In this document: positions 748-52,872 of the stretch, piece by piece
Layout: every line of letters begins with the position of its first letter
Numbering within the stretch: position 1 is the first letter of the stretch
Origin: Cytophagales bacterium
GTDB lineage: Bacteria; Bacteroidota; Bacteroidia; Cytophagales; CCMP332
Direction: 5' to 3'
DNA: 64,000 bases
NCBI GenBank assembly: GCA_028279065.1
Contig: JANQSY010000055.1
Location: 1-64,000 of the forward strand
The notes under the pieces: generated by a model
What the model was told of the DNA's origin: nothing
Databases searched by the model: none
The model's input: only the letters and a program-made list of their open reading frames with translations
Program-made: the position numbers and the translations under genes

Positions 748-2484
748 ATGTCTTCCTTAAGATGGGTTTTTTTCTTCATTGCCTTTTACTCTATATCTGC
801 CAGGGCCAGTGATGATCTGAACCTTGACAGCCTAGAGCTTGCCTGGATCAAAAACAATCCTGTAATAACCTACTCTGGAGACCCTAGTTGGGCGCCTTAT
901 GACTATAATGACAATGGGGAGCATAAAGGCATTTCAAGGAACTACCTTGATAGGATCTCTGAAATCACCGGTCTTCAATTCAAATATGTGCCCTCCGACT
1001 CCTGGACTGGGATCAGGGATCTTTTTAAAGAAGGTAAGATCATGATGATCCCGGCCTTGGTGGAATCAAGGGAGAGGGCCAGACACCTTGACTTTTCAAA
1101 ACCATACATAAATGAAGAATATGTGATCATCACCAGCGAGAAGGAAAGAAGGATCTTCGATGAGAACGATCTGGCCAATTTGAGGATCGTGGTGGTAAGG
1201 GATTATTGGATCACAAATCAGCTAAAGACCAAATTCCCAAGATTCGACTATGTGGAGGTGAAATCCACCCCTGAATGCTTTGAAGTCATAGAAGGGGGAG
1301 AGGCAGAGGCAGCGATTATGGATTTTACAGTTGCAATGTACTTCATAGAAAAGAACAGCTTCAGCGATCTAAAAATCGTCCCGTCCATTTTCGAGGAAGA
1401 GGTGATCCAGATGGGGATTTTAAGCGGAAACGAGCCTCTGGTTGGGATTCTAAATAAGGCTTTGGTCTCAATGGACGATTCTGAAAAAGCAGAAATGAGG
1501 AATGAGTTCTTTGAAGTCAGCCTCAAATCAGGCATCCCAAGAAAGTATATCAGGATGTTTTCGATGGGATTGATCTTCCTGGGAGTAGTTGTCATAGTGG
1601 TGATCCTTTGGAATCAAACGCTCCAAAAAGAAGTGCGATCCAGAAAAGCGGCTGAAGGAAGATTGGTTCAGGCTAATGTCAATCTTCGGGCAAAGTCCGA
1701 TGAGCTGAATCAGGCGTTAGACTCATTAAAGAAAATGCAAGCAAAACTGGTCCAGGCAGAAAAGCTTTCGGCCATTGGGCAGATGTCGGAAGTGGTGAAT
1801 CATGAGATCAATAATCTTTTGAATTATCTAAGGGCTAGCATATCCCCATTGAAAAGGGACATTGAGTTCCTGGCTTCCATCCAAGGAAAAGAACTGACCA
1901 AAAAAGATGAAGTAGAATTCGATGAAATCAAAAAGGAGGTATCGGTACTTCTTGAAAACCTGGAACAGGGTTCAGGACAGGCAAGTGAGATCATAACCGA
2001 AATAGGTCAGTTCGGGAGAGCGGGAAACAGGGAAAAAAGGCCGCTCAATCCCAATCAGCTTGTTGAAGCCACCATCAAACTTCTTAACCCCAGCATTCCT
2101 TCAGGGGTAAAATTGGTTTTGGATCTGCAAGCAACCAGAGCTCTTCTGGCTTTAACTGGCCCGATCAAACAGGTAATGATCAACCTGTTGAAAAACAGTC
2201 TCGAAGCCATGGGAGAAAGTGGCCAGATCCGGATCAGTACTTACGACCATGCAAATGACCTTGTAGGTTTCAAAATTAGCGATGAGGGGCTCGGTATTGC
2301 TCCGGAAAATCATGAGAAGGTATTTGAACCTTTCTACACGACAAAGAAATCCTCTGGCGGGTCAGGTTTAGGGTTAGCTATAGTTCAAAAGGTCGTAAGG
2401 GACCATGGAGGATCGATCAGTCTAAATTCGGAAGTGGGAAAGGGAACTGAATTCACCCTGGAATTCCCGGCAATTACTGGCTAA
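748..2484 (+). CDS. Hybrid sensor: periplasmic solute-binding domain fused to a histidine kinase
   Basis: The 578-residue protein has a signal peptide (about 1-21) and a type 3 extracellular solute-binding domain (about 30-262) of the kind found in amino-acid-binding proteins and BvgS. One membrane helix (about 272-289) and a coiled coil (about 292-342) follow. The dimerisation helix carries phospho-acceptor His352 in NHEINN, and the ATPase domain shows the N box (NLLKNSLEAM), DEGLGI and GGSGLGLAI. It probably senses a small periplasmic ligand and autophosphorylates. No receiver domain or response regulator is encoded nearby, so the partner lies elsewhere. Its stop overlaps the next, convergent gene by 4 bases. 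Confidence 0.85.
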   Translation: MSSLRWVFFFIAFYSISARASDDLNLDSLELAWIKNNPVITYSGDPSWAPYDYNDNGEHKGISRNYLDRISEITGLQFKYVPSDSWTGIRDLFKEGKIMMIPALVESRERARHLDFSKPYINEEYVIITSEKERRIFDENDLANLRIVVVRDYWITNQLKTKFPRFDYVEVKSTPECFEVIEGGEAEAAIMDFTVAMYFIEKNSFSDLKIVPSIFEEEVIQMGILSGNEPLVGILNKALVSMDDSEKAEMRNEFFEVSLKSGIPRKYIRMFSMGLIFLGVVVIVVILWNQTLQKEVRSRKAAEGRLVQANVNLRAKSDELNQALDSLKKMQAKLVQAEKLSAIGQMSEVVNHEINNLLNYLRASISPLKRDIEFLASIQGKELTKKDEVEFDEIKKEVSVLLENLEQGSGQASEIITEIGQFGRAGNREKRPLNPNQLVEATIKLLNPSIPSGVKLVLDLQATRALLALTGPIKQVMINLLKNSLEAMGESGQIRISTYDHANDLVGFKISDEGLGIAPENHEKVFEPFYTTKKSSGGSGLGLAIVQKVVRDHGGSISLNSEVGKGTEFTLEFPAITG

Positions 2485-3749
2485 AAATCATCCCCTTTTA
2501 GCATCCTATTCCAATACAGCCAGGGTAATCCGTATTTCTTCAAAACCCACATTGAATAGCGCTCCTTAGCGGTATTTATTGGGAAGGAGGGAGTGGGTTT
2601 GTTATCGTAATCGAACTCCGCAAGGACCATCCTCCCGTAGCGTGTTACGATTGGGCAGCTTGCGTATCCGTTGTAGGTTGCATAATCCCTATCCAATTCC
2701 CCTTTTCGAATTTTTGCAAGAAGATTTTTGACCAACACCGGAGCCTGTTTTCTTATTGAAGCTCCTGTTTTCGCGTTGGGTGTACTTGCCACATCGCCCA
2801 AAGCCCAGACATTCTTGAACCGATTATGTTGCAGGGTATATTTATCGACATCCACCCATCCCCATTGACTATCATGAACGGCCAATGCGCTGTTTTTTAT
2901 GAAATCCGGAGCGCTTTGGGGGGGAGCCACATGCATCATTTCAAATGGAATGATCACCTTGAATCCATCCTCGATCTTGAGGTCCAGGTTGGGATCTTCC
3001 TTCAGGTAATCCGGATTCGTGTTCTTTTCTCCAATGACATAAACAGCTTCCTTCTTTTCAGGCCGGATCTCAACCAACTCGTGAAAAAACCTGGCATGAA
3101 TGTCTCTTGTCTCAACAATCCTACTGAGCACTTTTTCGAATTTGGGTACACCGAATATCTTGGTGCCTGGAAGGGCCAGAATTACATTTATTTCATCCCT
3201 CTTACCCTTTTTTCTGAAATAATGATCGCCCAGGTAGGTGATCTTTTGGGGAGCTCCTCCGCACTTTATCGGGGTTGGGGCCTGGGTAAAAAGGGCATTA
3301 CCCGATTTGATCTTCTTCAAGCATTCAAACGTGTACTCCGCATAGGTGGGGTCATAATTGGTGGTGATCCCATTGTTTCCCAACCCCTCCTTCAATCCCG
3401 GGATCGCGTCGTAATTGATCTGGATCCCCACGGCCACGATCATCTCTTCATATCCGAAGAACCTTCCGTCCTCAAGCTTCACCAAATTATCAGCAGGGAG
3501 AACCTGGCTAACCTTCCCCTTGACCCACTTCACTCCCTTTGGGATCACATCCTTTTCATTCCTGATCGTCTTGTCAAGATCATAGGCCCCTGCTCCAACC
3601 AGGGTCCAGGCCGGCTGGTAATAATGCTTTTCATTTGGCTCGATGATCCCGATATCGAGCTTTGGATCCTTCCTTTTCAGTTGAGCTGCTGTGATTATTC
3701 CTCCCGTGCCACCACCCAGGATCAGGATCTGATATTTTTTGGTTTCCAT
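2481..3749 (-). CDS. sqr: Sulfide:quinone oxidoreductase, eukaryote-like (type II) group
   Basis: This 422-residue FAD enzyme oxidises sulfide and passes electrons to the quinone pool at the membrane. The N-terminal dinucleotide motif GGGTGG lies at residues 12-17. The two redox-active cysteines of this group are present: Cys163 in PIKCGGAPQKI and Cys365 in GYASCPIVT, matching mitochondrial SQRDL-type enzymes. The late FAD contact is seen in WALGDVASTPNAKT. The length is normal. The 85-base gap upstream holds two palindromes and no other gene, suggesting separate control from the dcd gene behind it. A related flavoprotein dehydrogenase is the alternative, but both cysteines favour SQR. Confidence 0.88.
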   Translation of the reverse strand: METKKYQILILGGGTGGIITAAQLKRKDPKLDIGIIEPNEKHYYQPAWTLVGAGAYDLDKTIRNEKDVIPKGVKWVKGKVSQVLPADNLVKLEDGRFFGYEEMIVAVGIQINYDAIPGLKEGLGNNGITTNYDPTYAEYTFECLKKIKSGNALFTQAPTPIKCGGAPQKITYLGDHYFRKKGKRDEINVILALPGTKIFGVPKFEKVLSRIVETRDIHARFFHELVEIRPEKKEAVYVIGEKNTNPDYLKEDPNLDLKIEDGFKVIIPFEMMHVAPPQSAPDFIKNSALAVHDSQWGWVDVDKYTLQHNRFKNVWALGDVASTPNAKTGASIRKQAPVLVKNLLAKIRKGELDRDYATYNGYASCPIVTRYGRMVLAEFDYDNKPTPSFPINTAKERYSMWVLKKYGLPWLYWNRMLKGDDF

Positions 3750-13953: not shown

Positions 13954-16083
13954 CTATTCCACCACGATTTTCTCTACAGCAAATGTTCCATCCACTGAAT
14001 GGATTTTTGCCAAATACAGTCCGGGCTTTTGAATTTCGACATCAACACCCTTGGAACCTGGAAATAATGTCTGAATTTCCTCACCCTTTAAAGAAATAAT
14101 AGAGACCTGAATAATTTCAGAATCAGACGTGATAGAAAAAGAACCAGCAGACGGATTGGGAAAGATACTTAGCTCTGAACCCAAAGGATCATCTTCTGAG
14201 AAAGCTCCCTTCCTCCATGGATCATGAGAATTGTCATTACAATCATATTCTCCGGTTCTTAGAATAGAGATCTGATCATGCACGATATCTGTCTGATCAG
14301 TTAAGCAGGTCTGAGCGTGCGCATTGACATATAATGTGTACGTCGGATTGGGATTGCCTGGCGGATTCCATGTGGGAGGGTTAAGAATCGCCGTTGTGCC
14401 AATTACTCCTCCTTCGGGAACAGGCTTATACCATGTTGGGCCTCCGTTAATTGAAAAATCCCAATAGTACCCAAATCCATTTTGAGGGTTATCAATCGTA
14501 AAAACCAGATCACAATGATTTGGATTTCCAGTCCAGGAGAAACTAGCATCGGGGATATGATTTGGATGATATGTGTCAATTGTATAGTCTGTTGATGGTC
14601 CCAATCCACAAGTTCCGGTTTTACTTACTCCGATTATCGCCTCCACGAAACCAGAAGAAAGCTTCACTCGGAATTCCTCATCATTGGTGGAAGAACTAAC
14701 CGCGGTAGCTCCTTGAATGATTACCCAGTGGAGGTTGCTATTGACGCCTCCTGATCTTTTCAGTGTTACCTTATCCCCTGCACAGAGTCCATCAGCCTCA
14801 ATAGGAGTTATGATAACATCTGGTGCCGGTTCAGGTGATTCTGTAGTAAAGGTTCTGGAAGTCCACTCTCCGTTTCCGCAATCATAGACAGCTCTACACC
14901 TAAGCTCAAACTCATCTTCTCCATTATAATCTACCCAAACATCTCTATAAAGAGACCAAAAGGTTTGTCCATTTTGCACAGCAGAATTTCCTATCCTGGC
15001 AGCATCATTCGGGGATGATGTAATTTCGAATTCATAATGAATAAAACCATCCATACTTGGATCTTGCCAGGTCGTTCCCGGATAAGGTTTTAATCGATAT
15101 CTTTCCGGGATACCATTATTACAGAAATTATTGGCTACTGCAGGACGCAGACCATCCCATGGCCAACTTGAGAAATTTGGAAAGTCTGTGATTGTAGTTA
15201 ATTGCTTTGTCTCCGTATGGGTTTGAACCGGGCATGAAGAGGTGGCTGGTTTTGTGATAAAACATTTTAGGGTTGCATTAAGCGCTCCACCAGCGTTGTT
15301 TACAACTACCTTGTTATCATTATTTGGACTATTCTCTGACCATCCGTTTGTAATGTCCCAATCATAAACCAAACCGTTAATAAAATTTACTTTGTAATCA
15401 ACATCTGATGGGGCACAATCGTGAGAATAGTTTTGAGCTCCATTCAACCTAGTAATTACAAAGTTATCAGGGTTAAATCCTGTTGAGAAAGAATGGCTGA
15501 TGTTTAAACCCGAGGTATAGTAATATTCCCACCCTCCTATATAATAAATATTGTTTCCAGTACCATCAACCTCCCCCAGCCAACAGGACCCATTTTGGTC
15601 CTGATAAAGACAGGCATTCCAAGCCTGTCCTAGAACGGAGGCAAACACCCCCGCATTGTTCTTTCCTCTATACTCAACATAAACATCCCAATATTTCAAA
15701 TTATTGGGCCCATTTTGAGGGGAAGTACAAACATATTCTGCAACGTCAGGGTCTTGAACAATGGTTGGATTTGAAATGGAACTTCCTGAAGAATTGAAGC
15801 CCCATTTTGTAATCCCTAGAAAGCCAATATTGATAACCGGGTTATTAGGGGAACATAAACTTGGGTAGTATGTTGGAAGATTCCCATCATAGATTATTCT
15901 GAATCTATAAACTGTCCCGGAACAAATATTTGCAAAACCACCTCCATTCCGAGAGGCCACGGTTGTCCAGGTGGCGCCAGTCCTTTTGGAAAATTCCCAG
16001 TTCCACTCATTCCCATTGGTGGTCTGAGCATACAAGCTTGCAGAGATTAGAAGAAGGGAGAAAAGAGTAATAATTTTTTTCAT
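13954..16083 (-). CDS. Large secreted T9SS cargo protein of unknown function
   Basis: The 709-residue protein has a signal peptide (1-19, ending LYAQ) and a C-terminal type A sorting domain (SIFPNPSAGSFSI near residue 637, GLYLAKI, AVEKIVVE). The long middle is rich in Asn, Gly, Trp, Tyr and Cys and looks like several beta-sandwich modules; a PKD/Ig-like unit may lie near 520-600 (NPNHCDLVFTID, GFGYYWDFS). No catalytic motif is recognised. A structural or adhesive surface protein is the likeliest role. The 72 bases upstream are followed by four tandem 21-bp repeats that may regulate it. Confidence 0.75.
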   Translation of the reverse strand: MKKIITLFSLLLISASLYAQTTNGNEWNWEFSKRTGATWTTVASRNGGGFANICSGTVYRFRIIYDGNLPTYYPSLCSPNNPVINIGFLGITKWGFNSSGSSISNPTIVQDPDVAEYVCTSPQNGPNNLKYWDVYVEYRGKNNAGVFASVLGQAWNACLYQDQNGSCWLGEVDGTGNNIYYIGGWEYYYTSGLNISHSFSTGFNPDNFVITRLNGAQNYSHDCAPSDVDYKVNFINGLVYDWDITNGWSENSPNNDNKVVVNNAGGALNATLKCFITKPATSSCPVQTHTETKQLTTITDFPNFSSWPWDGLRPAVANNFCNNGIPERYRLKPYPGTTWQDPSMDGFIHYEFEITSSPNDAARIGNSAVQNGQTFWSLYRDVWVDYNGEDEFELRCRAVYDCGNGEWTSRTFTTESPEPAPDVIITPIEADGLCAGDKVTLKRSGGVNSNLHWVIIQGATAVSSSTNDEEFRVKLSSGFVEAIIGVSKTGTCGLGPSTDYTIDTYHPNHIPDASFSWTGNPNHCDLVFTIDNPQNGFGYYWDFSINGGPTWYKPVPEGGVIGTTAILNPPTWNPPGNPNPTYTLYVNAHAQTCLTDQTDIVHDQISILRTGEYDCNDNSHDPWRKGAFSEDDPLGSELSIFPNPSAGSFSITSDSEIIQVSIISLKGEEIQTLFPGSKGVDVEIQKPGLYLAKIHSVDGTFAVEKIVVE

Positions 16084-16154
16084 GACATGTTTTTGTTCAA
16101 AAGAACCATGAAAACCGAGTATTTTCTTTAACCTTTAGTGAAACCCTATTGCTA

Positions 16155-16238
16155 TTTTGTGAATTCCTGATACGGTTTTGTGAATTCGTATCGAGGTTTT
16201 GTGAATTCGTATCGAGGTTTTGTGAATTCCTATCAAGG
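16155..16238. repeat. Four tandem 21-bp repeats, each with a GAATTC core
   Basis: Units start at 16155, 16176, 16197 and 16218 with exact 21-base spacing. Units 2 and 3 are identical (TTTTGTGAATTCGTATCG plus AGG); unit 4 differs at two bases and unit 1 in its second half. The spacing equals two turns of DNA, so proteins bound to each copy would face the same side. The array ends 72 bases before the start of the large T9SS gene (minus strand). There are no unique spacers, so it is not a CRISPR array. Confidence 0.85.
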
Positions 16239-16382
16239 TCAGAATACACTTCACTTAAAGGAAAATTCCTAATTCAAAATATTTCAGAAGCGAGAATACG
16301 ATGTCGGAAGGGGAATTAAGAAAAATAGAAAGTCTCTCAGGGGGTGGGTCATGGTTCAAAAATAGCCTGAATTATTGTTGGA

Positions 16383-16452
16383 CAGGAATTACCGCCCCCT
16401 TCCCACAGGCTTTGGCTTCAGGGCGGTGAGTGCCATAGAGGGAAGCATACAA
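16383..16452. repeat. Structured element, copy 1 (7-bp stem, 23-base loop)
   Basis: CAGGAATT leads into the stem ACCGCCC (16391-16397) / GGGCGGT (16421-16427) with a 23-base loop, then GAGT and a tail ending GAAGCATACAA (16442-16452). The same plan recurs 125 bases on with a different stem sequence. The match in loop length plus compensating stem changes points to selection on structure. Confidence 0.65.
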
Positions 16453-16507
16453 AAAAGAAGCTCGGAAGTAGTGACCCAGAAGTACAACAAGTTGACTTCA
16501 GGGCAAG

Positions 16508-16576
16508 CAGGAATTACGGATCGCAACACGCTGGGCCCTCCCTCAGATCCGTGAGTCCAAACAGAGAAGCATACAA
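16508..16576. repeat. Structured element, copy 2 (7-bp stem, 23-base loop)
   Basis: CAGGAATT, stem ACGGATC (16516-16522) / GATCCGT (16546-16552), 23-base loop, GAGT and GAAGCATACAA (16566-16576). Four of the seven stem pairs differ from copy 1, yet pairing is perfect in both. Between the copies, TTGACTTCAGGGC (16492-16504) nearly repeats 16412-16424. Copy 2 runs into the inverted repeat that flanks the tRNA. Confidence 0.65.
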
Positions 16577-16689
16577 TGCAATCAGCCCAAGGGCTTCGCC
16601 TTTGCTGTGCTTTTTTTGATCTCAACCAAAGCCAGGCTTTGTTTCGATCATAAAAAAAGCCCGGTCGGAAAACCGGGCTGATTGCATTG

Positions 16690-16691
<2 letters not shown>
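16572..16691. repeat. Inverted duplication of the tRNA-fMet 3' flank and terminator
   Basis: The 17-base word TACAATGCAATCAGCCC at 16572-16588 is repeated inverted and without mismatch at 16675-16691. Inner parts also mirror: a T-run with GATC (16609-16621) against GATC and an A-run (16646-16660), and AAAGCC/GGCTTT near the centre. The right arm begins exactly with the last two bases of the tRNA, so the whole trailer and terminator seem to have been copied in the opposite direction, with later decay of the left copy. Confidence 0.7.
16652..16679 (-). terminator. Rho-independent terminator of tRNA-fMet
   Basis: Minus-strand stem AGCCCGG/CCGGGCT with an 8-base loop and a run of seven T. It lies 11 bases beyond the tRNA 3' end and is inside the right arm of the inverted repeat. 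Confidence 0.8.
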
Positions 16692-16762
<71 letters not shown>

Positions 16763-19062: not shown

Positions 19063-19401
19063 ATGAGAAAATTACCGTTTTATTTTATTGCTCTTGCCAT
19101 GATGTTTTTCGTGGCTTGTGGCGGAGGAGATGGAGCAGCATCGGAAGGTGATGTCCAGGAAGAAGAGGTGATGGAGGAAGCCGAGGAAATGGAGGAGATG
19201 GAGGAGGCAGAGGAGATGGAAGATATGGATGAGGACATGGAGGAGGCAGAGGAGATAGATGAAGAAGCAGAGGAAGCAGATGTTAAGTCCATGAAGAAAG
19301 GCGGCGATGAGGAAGGTGGAGAAGCAGCTGCTCCAAAAGCAAAGACTTCAAAAGATGCTGAAAAAGCCGAAAAAGAAGACGCAAAGGAAGCTGACGGCTG
19401 A
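19063..19401 (+). CDS. Highly acidic low-complexity lipoprotein
   Basis: The 112-residue protein has a lipoprotein signal (FFVACGGG, Cys19). Residues 30-75 are built from short units of Glu with Met or Ala (EEMEEAEEME pattern), then a Lys/Glu/Ala-rich end. No fold or family is recognised and the sequence is probably disordered or a single charged helix at the envelope. Its own -7 box and terminator support expression. The serine-rich reading on the opposite strand is a shadow of this repeat. Confidence 0.6.
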   Translation: MRKLPFYFIALAMMFFVACGGGDGAASEGDVQEEEVMEEAEEMEEMEEAEEMEDMDEDMEEAEEIDEEAEEADVKSMKKGGDEEGGEAAAPKAKTSKDAEKAEKEDAKEADG

Positions 19402-50389: not shown

Positions 50390-52765
50390 TCAGAACTTGG
50401 CTCTTACCCCAAACAAGAAATTCCTGCCAGCCTGGGGGAAATAAAAAGGAGTTGTGCCCCACACATAACCATTTGAAACATATTCTGTATCAAAAATATT
50501 GTTGACCAGGACTGTGAATCCCAACTCTTCAATCCCTTTCGGGTAGATAATCCACCGAATCCTAAGGTCATTGATGAAATAAGGGTCCAAGGCCAGCCTT
50601 GAGTTATTGGTATTTGTCAATTGCTGCTCGCCTACATATTTTGATAACAGGCTTAACTCTAACCCCTTTATCGGAAGGTAGGAAAAGTCACTTGCAGCAA
50701 TTACCTGAGGAGAAAATGCTATTGGGGTAGTTTCAGTTACCAAATCGCCTGAGGGTGTTTGATAATTATAATCAATATTCTGATTTGAACTAAAAGTGAA
50801 ATTTGGGACCCAACGGAATTTTGGGTGAAAATTAAACTGGCCTACCAGTTCAATTCCAGCCCTATAGCTCTGCCCTACATTTTCACGAATTGGAGCTCCA
50901 ACATCATTCAATTCTCCTGAAAGCACCAATTGGTTTTGATAATACATGAAGTATCCCACCACTTCATAAGCAGCATTGACGCCTCTCCTTCGATAACCCA
51001 ATTCAAAGTCGTAGAGGGTTTCAGCCTTGGGTTTTTCCTGATCAAGATTATCCAAATAGTCGCTGCGGTTGGGTTCCCTATTCCCTACTGCAACCGAAAA
51101 GAAAATGTCAGCGAACTGGTTCAGATTATATGTAAGCCCAAGTTTAGGATTGAAAAAATGGAATTCATCTTCTATGTCAAGGTCAATATTCCCTTCGTCG
51201 ATCCCTGAGATCTTATATCTGACCCCTCGATACTGAAGGTCTGCAAACAGAGACAACTTAGGCAAGACCGAATAGGTCCATTTGCCATAAGCGGTAAGAT
51301 CTGATTTGTTGCCTGTATTTTCATAATACTTATGTCTTATCTCTGAGTTGGAAGCATACCTCGCCCAAATGACTTCCCCAAAATGGTCACCATCGTATTG
51401 GCTTCCAGCTATGCCAAAGACCAGGTTACTTCTTCCCTTGACCTTTTCAATATTGGCAGTAAATCCATAAAAATCATTGTCAAGCCATTTCCTCCTGATA
51501 AGATCAGAATTGGTAATGGTATCTGTTCCGATGATTACCGGTTGGATATTATAGAAGGAAAGATCTGTTTCTCCCCAGGCATTGGCATCCTGATATTCCT
51601 CGAAAAATCCCCGGCCATAGGTATAATGTAAGGCTGCATTTCCCTTCCATCCATTGCCCAGGTCCTGGCTGAAATGTAGTTGAAAGTGGTCTTGGGAATA
51701 ATCATCTACCTGATTGTCATAGTAGAACCGAGTACTTCCGTCTGGATTAGTCACAAGACCAGCATTGTTCTGGGTCCGGTTTGTGGCAAGGGTTGCCGAG
51801 TCGATCCCATACCAACTCTGATAGGTTTTTTCACGACCTCCGAATGCCAGGAATTTTATCAAAGTTTTCTTGCCAACATAGGCAGCTGACCCATAATAGG
51901 ACCTTAGCTCGGAGCTTGCTCTATCAACATACCCATCTGAATTTATGGATGAAAATCTTCCTTCAAATATCCACTTATCCTTGATCAGTCCCGACCCAGC
52001 CTGAGCTGAAAATTTGTTCGTATTAAATGAACCTACCGAACCCTCGATCTGCCCATATGCCTTCTCTCGAACATTTAGTGTTTGGAGATTAACAGTTCCT
52101 CCGAATGCTCCTGCTCCGTTTGTTGAAGTCCCCACTCCACGCTGGATCTGAAGGTTTTCGGTAGAGGCCGCCATGTCGGGAATGTCAACCCAGAAAACGT
52201 TCATTGATTCGGAATCGTTATAGGGAATTCCGTTGATGGTGACATTGATCCTGGTTTGGTCACTACCGCGGATCCTCATGCCGGTATATCCAACACCATT
52301 ACCGGCATCGGAGGTAGTAACCAGACTTGGGGTCCACTGAAGCAAATACGGAACATCCTGACCAAGATTGTTCTTTTCAAGATATTCTTTTGGAACTTCC
52401 TGATGGGTAATTGGGGTAATATCTGCAGCCCTTGTGGCTGTTACGATCACCTCATCGGTCCAAAGATTAGATGGCTCCAACAGGATCTCTAAATCTGTAT
52501 CCCCTGATAAAGAAATGGTGTCCGAATAGGGTTTGTAGCCAATAAAGCTTACCCTGATATCAACGCTTTCATTGGAGAGCCCCGAAAATCTAAACTCACC
52601 TTTTTCATTGGTACTGCTCGCCAAAAATGTATTATTCAGGATGACAGTAGCCCCAATAAGAGGTGTCCGGTTTTCGGAGTCAAGAACTTTTCCGGAAATA
52701 GAGTTTTGACCAAATAGCAGGCCATGGTGCAATAGGATCGCACCGATCAATATGATATTCTTCAT
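50390..52765 (-). CDS. TonB-dependent receptor, TPP-regulated (thiamine or precursor uptake)
   Basis: The 791-residue receptor has a signal peptide (1-19), a carboxypeptidase-like beta-sandwich (about 21-108: GKVLDSENRTPLIGATVILNN, TNEKGEFRFSGL), a plug domain (about 110-230) and a 22-strand barrel ending GRNFLFGVRAKF. A TPP riboswitch lies 20-102 bases before the start codon, so the protein is probably the thiamine (or hydroxymethylpyrimidine/thiazole) receptor of the OmrThi type. The ligand cannot be read from the receptor itself. Confidence 0.88.
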   Translation of the reverse strand: MKNIILIGAILLHHGLLFGQNSISGKVLDSENRTPLIGATVILNNTFLASSTNEKGEFRFSGLSNESVDIRVSFIGYKPYSDTISLSGDTDLEILLEPSNLWTDEVIVTATRAADITPITHQEVPKEYLEKNNLGQDVPYLLQWTPSLVTTSDAGNGVGYTGMRIRGSDQTRINVTINGIPYNDSESMNVFWVDIPDMAASTENLQIQRGVGTSTNGAGAFGGTVNLQTLNVREKAYGQIEGSVGSFNTNKFSAQAGSGLIKDKWIFEGRFSSINSDGYVDRASSELRSYYGSAAYVGKKTLIKFLAFGGREKTYQSWYGIDSATLATNRTQNNAGLVTNPDGSTRFYYDNQVDDYSQDHFQLHFSQDLGNGWKGNAALHYTYGRGFFEEYQDANAWGETDLSFYNIQPVIIGTDTITNSDLIRRKWLDNDFYGFTANIEKVKGRSNLVFGIAGSQYDGDHFGEVIWARYASNSEIRHKYYENTGNKSDLTAYGKWTYSVLPKLSLFADLQYRGVRYKISGIDEGNIDLDIEDEFHFFNPKLGLTYNLNQFADIFFSVAVGNREPNRSDYLDNLDQEKPKAETLYDFELGYRRRGVNAAYEVVGYFMYYQNQLVLSGELNDVGAPIRENVGQSYRAGIELVGQFNFHPKFRWVPNFTFSSNQNIDYNYQTPSGDLVTETTPIAFSPQVIAASDFSYLPIKGLELSLLSKYVGEQQLTNTNNSRLALDPYFINDLRIRWIIYPKGIEELGFTVLVNNIFDTEYVSNGYVWGTTPFYFPQAGRNFLFGVRAKF

Positions 52766-52784
52766 GGATTGAAATATTAAACTT

Positions 52785-52867
52785 CCGGAATCCCTACGGC
52801 TGCACTACCAGCTTCAGGTCATAAGGGTTTGATCTCAGCCCGTTATATTAAGGCACCCCAACTCCGG
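52785..52867 (-). ncRNA. TPP (THI-box) riboswitch
   Basis: Minus-strand RNA with conserved THI words in order: GGGGTGCC, GGCTGAGATCAAACCC, ACCTGAAGCTGGTAGTGC and GCCGTAGGGA. The closing stem P1 pairs CCGGAGT (52867-52861) with ATTCCGG (52791-52785). No terminator lies between it and the ATG 20 bases on, so control of translation is likelier than of transcription. It binds thiamine pyrophosphate and should shut off the receptor when thiamine is plentiful. Confidence 0.92.
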
Positions 52868-52872
52868 TGAGC

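Follow-up and report, generated by a model that had tools for sequence, protein, structure and literature searches.

The window, the whole stretch of 64,000 nucleotides analysed here (contig JANQSY010000055.1 of a Cytophagales bacterium), contains a gene-free stretch of 605 bp at 16084-16688, in agreement with the roughly 600 bases given in the original prediction. Its left neighbour, on the minus strand, encodes a 709-aa protein carrying a Por secretion-type sorting domain at its C terminus; this domain and other genes of the window point to Bacteroidota. The adjacent initiator tRNA that had been reported was found directly to the right, on the minus strand (tRNA-Met(CAT), 16689-16762), and has a terminator of its own at 16679-16658. 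Initiator tRNAs typically show three G-C pairs in the anticodon stem together with a non-standard 1:72 pair, and since this tRNA has both features we assign it as the initiator, tRNA-fMet. Beyond it, the plus strand encodes Era and then Der. After der, at 19063-19401, we observed a predicted lipoprotein-like ORF of low complexity and very acidic composition (E/M/D repeats), with overlapping tandem repeats.

Positions 16572-16691, at the junction between the gene-free stretch and the tRNA, form an imperfect palindrome of 120 bp whose arms, TACAATGCAATCAGCCC, match perfectly over 17 bp; the left one starts within the tail of the second hairpin copy described below, and the right one is the tRNA 3' flank. 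At the other end of the stretch, a 21-bp unit, TTTTGTGAATTCGTATCGAGG, occurs four times at 16155-16239, upstream of the gene at 16083 on the minus strand, and no near-exact unit was found elsewhere in the genome. As 21 bp correspond to two helical turns, this array possibly represents binding sites. Farther along the window, a TPP riboswitch (Rfam RF00059, just above threshold) was detected on the minus strand at 52775-52870, immediately ahead of the gene for a TonB-dependent receptor (50390-52765), which suggests a thiamine-related uptake.

Two related hairpin elements had been predicted in the gene-free stretch, and we confirmed both of them on the plus strand, at 16383-16452 (copy 1) and 16508-16576 (copy 2). 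Copy 1 is made of CAGGAATTAC, the first stem arm, a 23-nt loop, the second stem arm, GTGAGTGCCA, a linker and GAAGCATACAA; copy 2 has the same layout, with different stem letters and a mostly different loop. The 125-base spacing (CAGGAATT starts at 16383 and 16508), the perfect 7-bp stems (16391-16397/16421-16427 and 16516-16522/16546-16552), the equal loops of 23 nt, the GAGT that follows each stem and the shared tail GAAGCATACAA (at 16442 in copy 1 and 16566 in copy 2) are all present as initially described. The shared blocks exceed that description, CAGGAATTAC, GTGAGT, CCA and GAAGCATACAA being identical between the copies, and the paired element is larger, with 12 pairs. TT/GA lengthens the stem to 9 bp, one pair of which is a T.G wobble kept in both copies. 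Hairpin 1 (16389-16429) has these 9 bp (TTACCGCCC/GGGCGGTGA) around its 23-nt loop, and its outer step is GG/CC with a bulge. Hairpin 2 (16510-16558) has 12 pairs (GGA.TTACGGATC/GATCCGTGA.TCC) around a loop of the same length, the outer GGA/TCC providing three extra pairs beyond an A.G mismatch. A third plus-strand hairpin is found between the copies, at 16472-16505 (fold z -2.72).

Copy 1 reads CAGGAATTACCGCCC-loop-GGGCGGTGAGTGCCATAGAGGGAAGCATACAA and copy 2 CAGGAATTACGGATC-loop-GATCCGTGAGTCCAAACAGAGAAGCATACAA; the stems indeed differ in sequence and are fully paired in both copies. When the copies are compared, exact two-sided compensation is observed at 3 of the 9 inner pairs (C-G to G-C, C-G to A-T and C-G to T-A) and none is broken; such in-register compensation of three changes per arm has a chance of about 4e-4, by a simple count on one sequence pair. 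The local alignment of one copy with the other scores 22, against a mean of 8.4 (sd 1.3, maximum 18) for 2000 dinucleotide shuffles and a best score of 15 among 316 other adjacent segment pairs of the window; the aligned segments were framed from the finding itself, so this is not a blind test, and the margin is large. On their own, 7-bp stems with 23-nt loops are not rare, 14 of them occurring in the window, and the case against chance therefore comes from the homologous flanks and the in-register compensation. Divergence is uneven: the flanking blocks are identical at 10/10 and 11/11 positions, the loops at 10/23, and such a distribution argues for constraint. Since no search returned a homologue, the covariation comes from one sequence pair in one genome. 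Taken as sequence evidence, these data support a real pairing and an element that bears structure rather than a chance resemblance.

The original prediction had left open a structured RNA or a structure-recognised DNA repeat. The structure stands, and we favour RNA over a DNA repeat because the plus strand folds better, a G.U pair is conserved and the 3' end resembles a terminator. Compared with shuffles, copy 2 folds with z = -2.77 on the plus strand and -0.50 on the minus strand, and the conserved T.G pair is possible on the plus strand only. Copy 1 folds weakly on both strands (z -1.16 on plus, -0.70 on minus); hairpin 1 by itself does not reach significance, and sliding 100-nt windows across copy 1 gave no significant fold. 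The terminator segment has a z of -2.35, and the element as a whole is unremarkable, its fold being only slightly better than that of shuffles (z -1.57). When 16375-16617 is folded in silico, the two hairpins are predicted with a probability near 1. The GC content is 52% in 16376-16617, higher than in the 290 bp before it (35%) or in the window (44%). We searched for a promoter of a plus-strand transcript: no sigma-70 promoter was found, nor any Bacteroidetes-type promoter better than chance level. A coding explanation was rejected; a minus-strand ORF of 78 aa extends over the two copies, but as they lie 124-125 bases apart they fall in different frames, and no short ORF over the copies has support.

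At 16588-16617, a terminator scan identified an intrinsic-terminator-like hairpin followed by a T-run on the plus strand, facing the tRNA-fMet terminator; both sites lie inside the palindrome. Two terminator-like sites were found in the region, including the tRNA's own, against 1.1 expected by chance. The tail of copy 1 and the bases that follow it (16438-16463) are predicted to pair with 16591-16617, forming with the terminator arm a duplex of -24.0 kcal/mol that none of 500 shuffles of tail 1 reached; this pairing was chosen after the fold had been seen, and runs of A and T contribute to it. The tail of copy 2 gives -14.8 kcal/mol with the same arm, a value reached by 70 of 500 shuffles and not significant. 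We consider the predicted pairing of tail 1 as a lead only, and the conserved tail may be important because of the strong pairing (tail 1 extended to 16463) that is predicted with the terminator arm.

We then built a covariance model, R1 (70 positions, 12 pairs), from the two copies. It had been suggested that they could belong to a dispersed repeat family, and this was not borne out: in its own genome (3.59 Mb, 97% complete) R1 retrieves these two copies only. The covariance search of relatives, proposed with the prediction, yielded no credible match among genomes of the order, class and phylum; over 148 relatives and partly overlapping samples of 391 genomes from the order, 395 from the class and 396 from the phylum, only scattered matches with E-values of at least 0.02 were obtained. 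These weak matches (E 0.02-0.4) were discarded, their number being at chance level for hundreds of genomes and most of them being truncated or broken in their pairing. The only genome of the same genus in the search (G001) has no credible R1 match. Scanning 84,980 species genomes for a pattern returned four matches in unrelated taxa, none of which was scored by R1. When compared by BLAST with relatives, phages and plasmids, the region produced nothing above background; viral contigs scanned with three patterns gave no match, and phage and plasmid records gave no match to the element.

No Rfam family (release 15) reaches its gathering threshold over 16383-16617; nearby, only the tRNA passes, and weak sub-threshold matches fall over the terminators, the tRNA or flanks. 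A third exact GAAGCATACAA in the genome was attributed to chance, as it lies inside a Fic-like coding sequence (a reading made by eye). The start of contig C32 (G000), positions 1-75, carries a short tandem repeat, GGAATAACGACC, upstream of a Fic-like gene. The literature searched yielded general surveys of candidate structured RNAs (e.g. PMC2864571, PMC8040213) and nothing specific to the element. With two genomic copies, no relatives and no Rfam match, the element is neither a dispersed repeat nor a member of a known family, and judged from the genomes compared its phylogenetic reach appears to be below the genus level. Of the refuting observations named with the prediction, about half are thus borne out, there being no further copies and no relatives whose pairing could be compared.

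We tentatively propose, as the best explanation and somewhat short of an even chance, that both copies are homologous hairpin domains, with the third hairpin between them, of one lineage-restricted small non-coding RNA read from the plus strand. The sequence shows the homology of the copies, the compensating pairs (within one genome), the terminator-like end and the predicted long-range pairing; transcription, the 5' end and any function are inferred. The RNA would start somewhere upstream of 16383 and, convergent with tRNA-fMet, would run to the T-run of the terminator-like hairpin near 16617. Each domain would consist of a stem with a conserved base (GGAATTAC/GTGAGT) and a covarying upper part, topped by a free, C-rich 23-nt loop; contact with targets or a protein would fall to the loops, and the constant parts would serve as scaffold. 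The GAAGCATACAA tail of copy 1 and the next bases could pair with the terminator arm, thereby closing the molecule, and the tail of copy 2 could pair more weakly with the same arm.

An explanation without function, which we hold to be rather doubtful, is that a hairpin-bearing stretch was duplicated in tandem and is decaying, the shared blocks being bases that have yet to change. The differences between the stems would then come from hairpin-templated mutation, one arm being copied onto the other so that pairing is kept without selection; template switching in a hairpin can by itself yield perfect stems. The presence of two copies only, the complete lack of relatives and of a recognisable promoter also fit such a decay. 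However, neutral decay does not readily give flanks identical at 10/10 and 11/11 positions next to loops identical at 10/23.

The tRNA-fMet flank was also compared with that of related genomes, the family being represented by three of them, this one and two others. In the same-genus genome, the era contig starts 3 bases past the tRNA, and the far side of the break is on another contig (C258), which has an overlap of about 99 bases with the era contig. C258 carries a 368-aa tyrosine-recombinase-like ORF (2062-3168) that begins about 55 bp from the tRNA-fMet 3' end; neither of these tRNA-flank contigs contains the element. In the same-family genome (G002), the tRNA flank is an ordinary terminator-like hairpin without the element. 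The tRNA-fMet flank is thus likely an insertion site in this genus, and this may explain the narrow distribution of the element.

The element could itself be the remnant of a mobile element, or part of a landing site, at the tRNA-fMet 3' flank, the repeats being leftover sites in DNA, either for a recombinase or its arms or with a structure formed by the single strand. The recombinase-like gene next to this tRNA in the same-genus genome and the break between contigs at that point suggest as much, as do the inverted duplication of the tRNA flank TACAATGCAATCAGCCC at the end of copy 2 and the lack of the region in relatives. Nevertheless, the match of the C258 ORF to Phage_integrase (E 6e-6, 26.6 bits) falls just below the curated Pfam cut-off of 27.1, and this integrase-bearing contig has no copy of the element. 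No recombinase was found among the scanned genes of the window, and within the window the tRNA 3' end does not recur as a direct repeat that would mark an insert; the viral, phage and plasmid collections are equally without a match. We regard a mobile origin as unlikely.

A cis-acting leader or attenuator for era and der, in which read-through would be regulated by competition of the tails for the terminator arm, finds an argument in the alternative pairings of that arm and in the position of era and der downstream on the plus strand, but it is highly improbable, given that read-through to era would cross tRNA-fMet and its terminator region in antisense and that the era upstream regions of the same-genus and same-family genomes have no such element. 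We give equally little credence to an orphan two-domain RNA switch, in which the identical 11-nt tails, each behind one hairpin domain, would compete for one terminator arm and whatever the two loops bind would decide the 3' structure.

Among known systems, the small RNA that we propose resembles standalone small RNAs with repeated hairpins, which are likewise intergenic, with tandem homologous hairpins, a constant scaffold, variable loops and a terminator-like 3' end; unlike them, it has no homologue, no recognisable promoter and no Rfam match, and its candidate sequence has been seen in this genome only. REP/BIME elements share with it a short, paired hairpin with a conserved foot located between genes, but REPs occur in many copies, and here two copies in 3.59 Mb, with a long 23-nt loop, led us to reject this assignment. 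Integron attC sites are also folded repeats with constant ends, a variable stem and loop and an arrangement in short arrays. The foot of our hairpins is however not RYYYAAC/GTTRRRY, the ends being CAGGAATTAC and GTGAGT, and there are two copies only; attC was thus rejected as well. The RNAs of type III toxin-antitoxin systems, in which tandem repeats are followed by a terminator-like hairpin, have near-identical repeats, which is not the case here, and no ToxN-type gene lies directly downstream, where an opposite-strand tRNA precedes Era and Der (era being the next plus-strand gene).

We see in the element a modest orphan small-RNA candidate and not evidence for a new class. Its conserved tails and their one common pairing partner make a concrete prediction that can be tested. 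Should the element be transcribed, its small RNA would be absent from Rfam and confined to one lineage.
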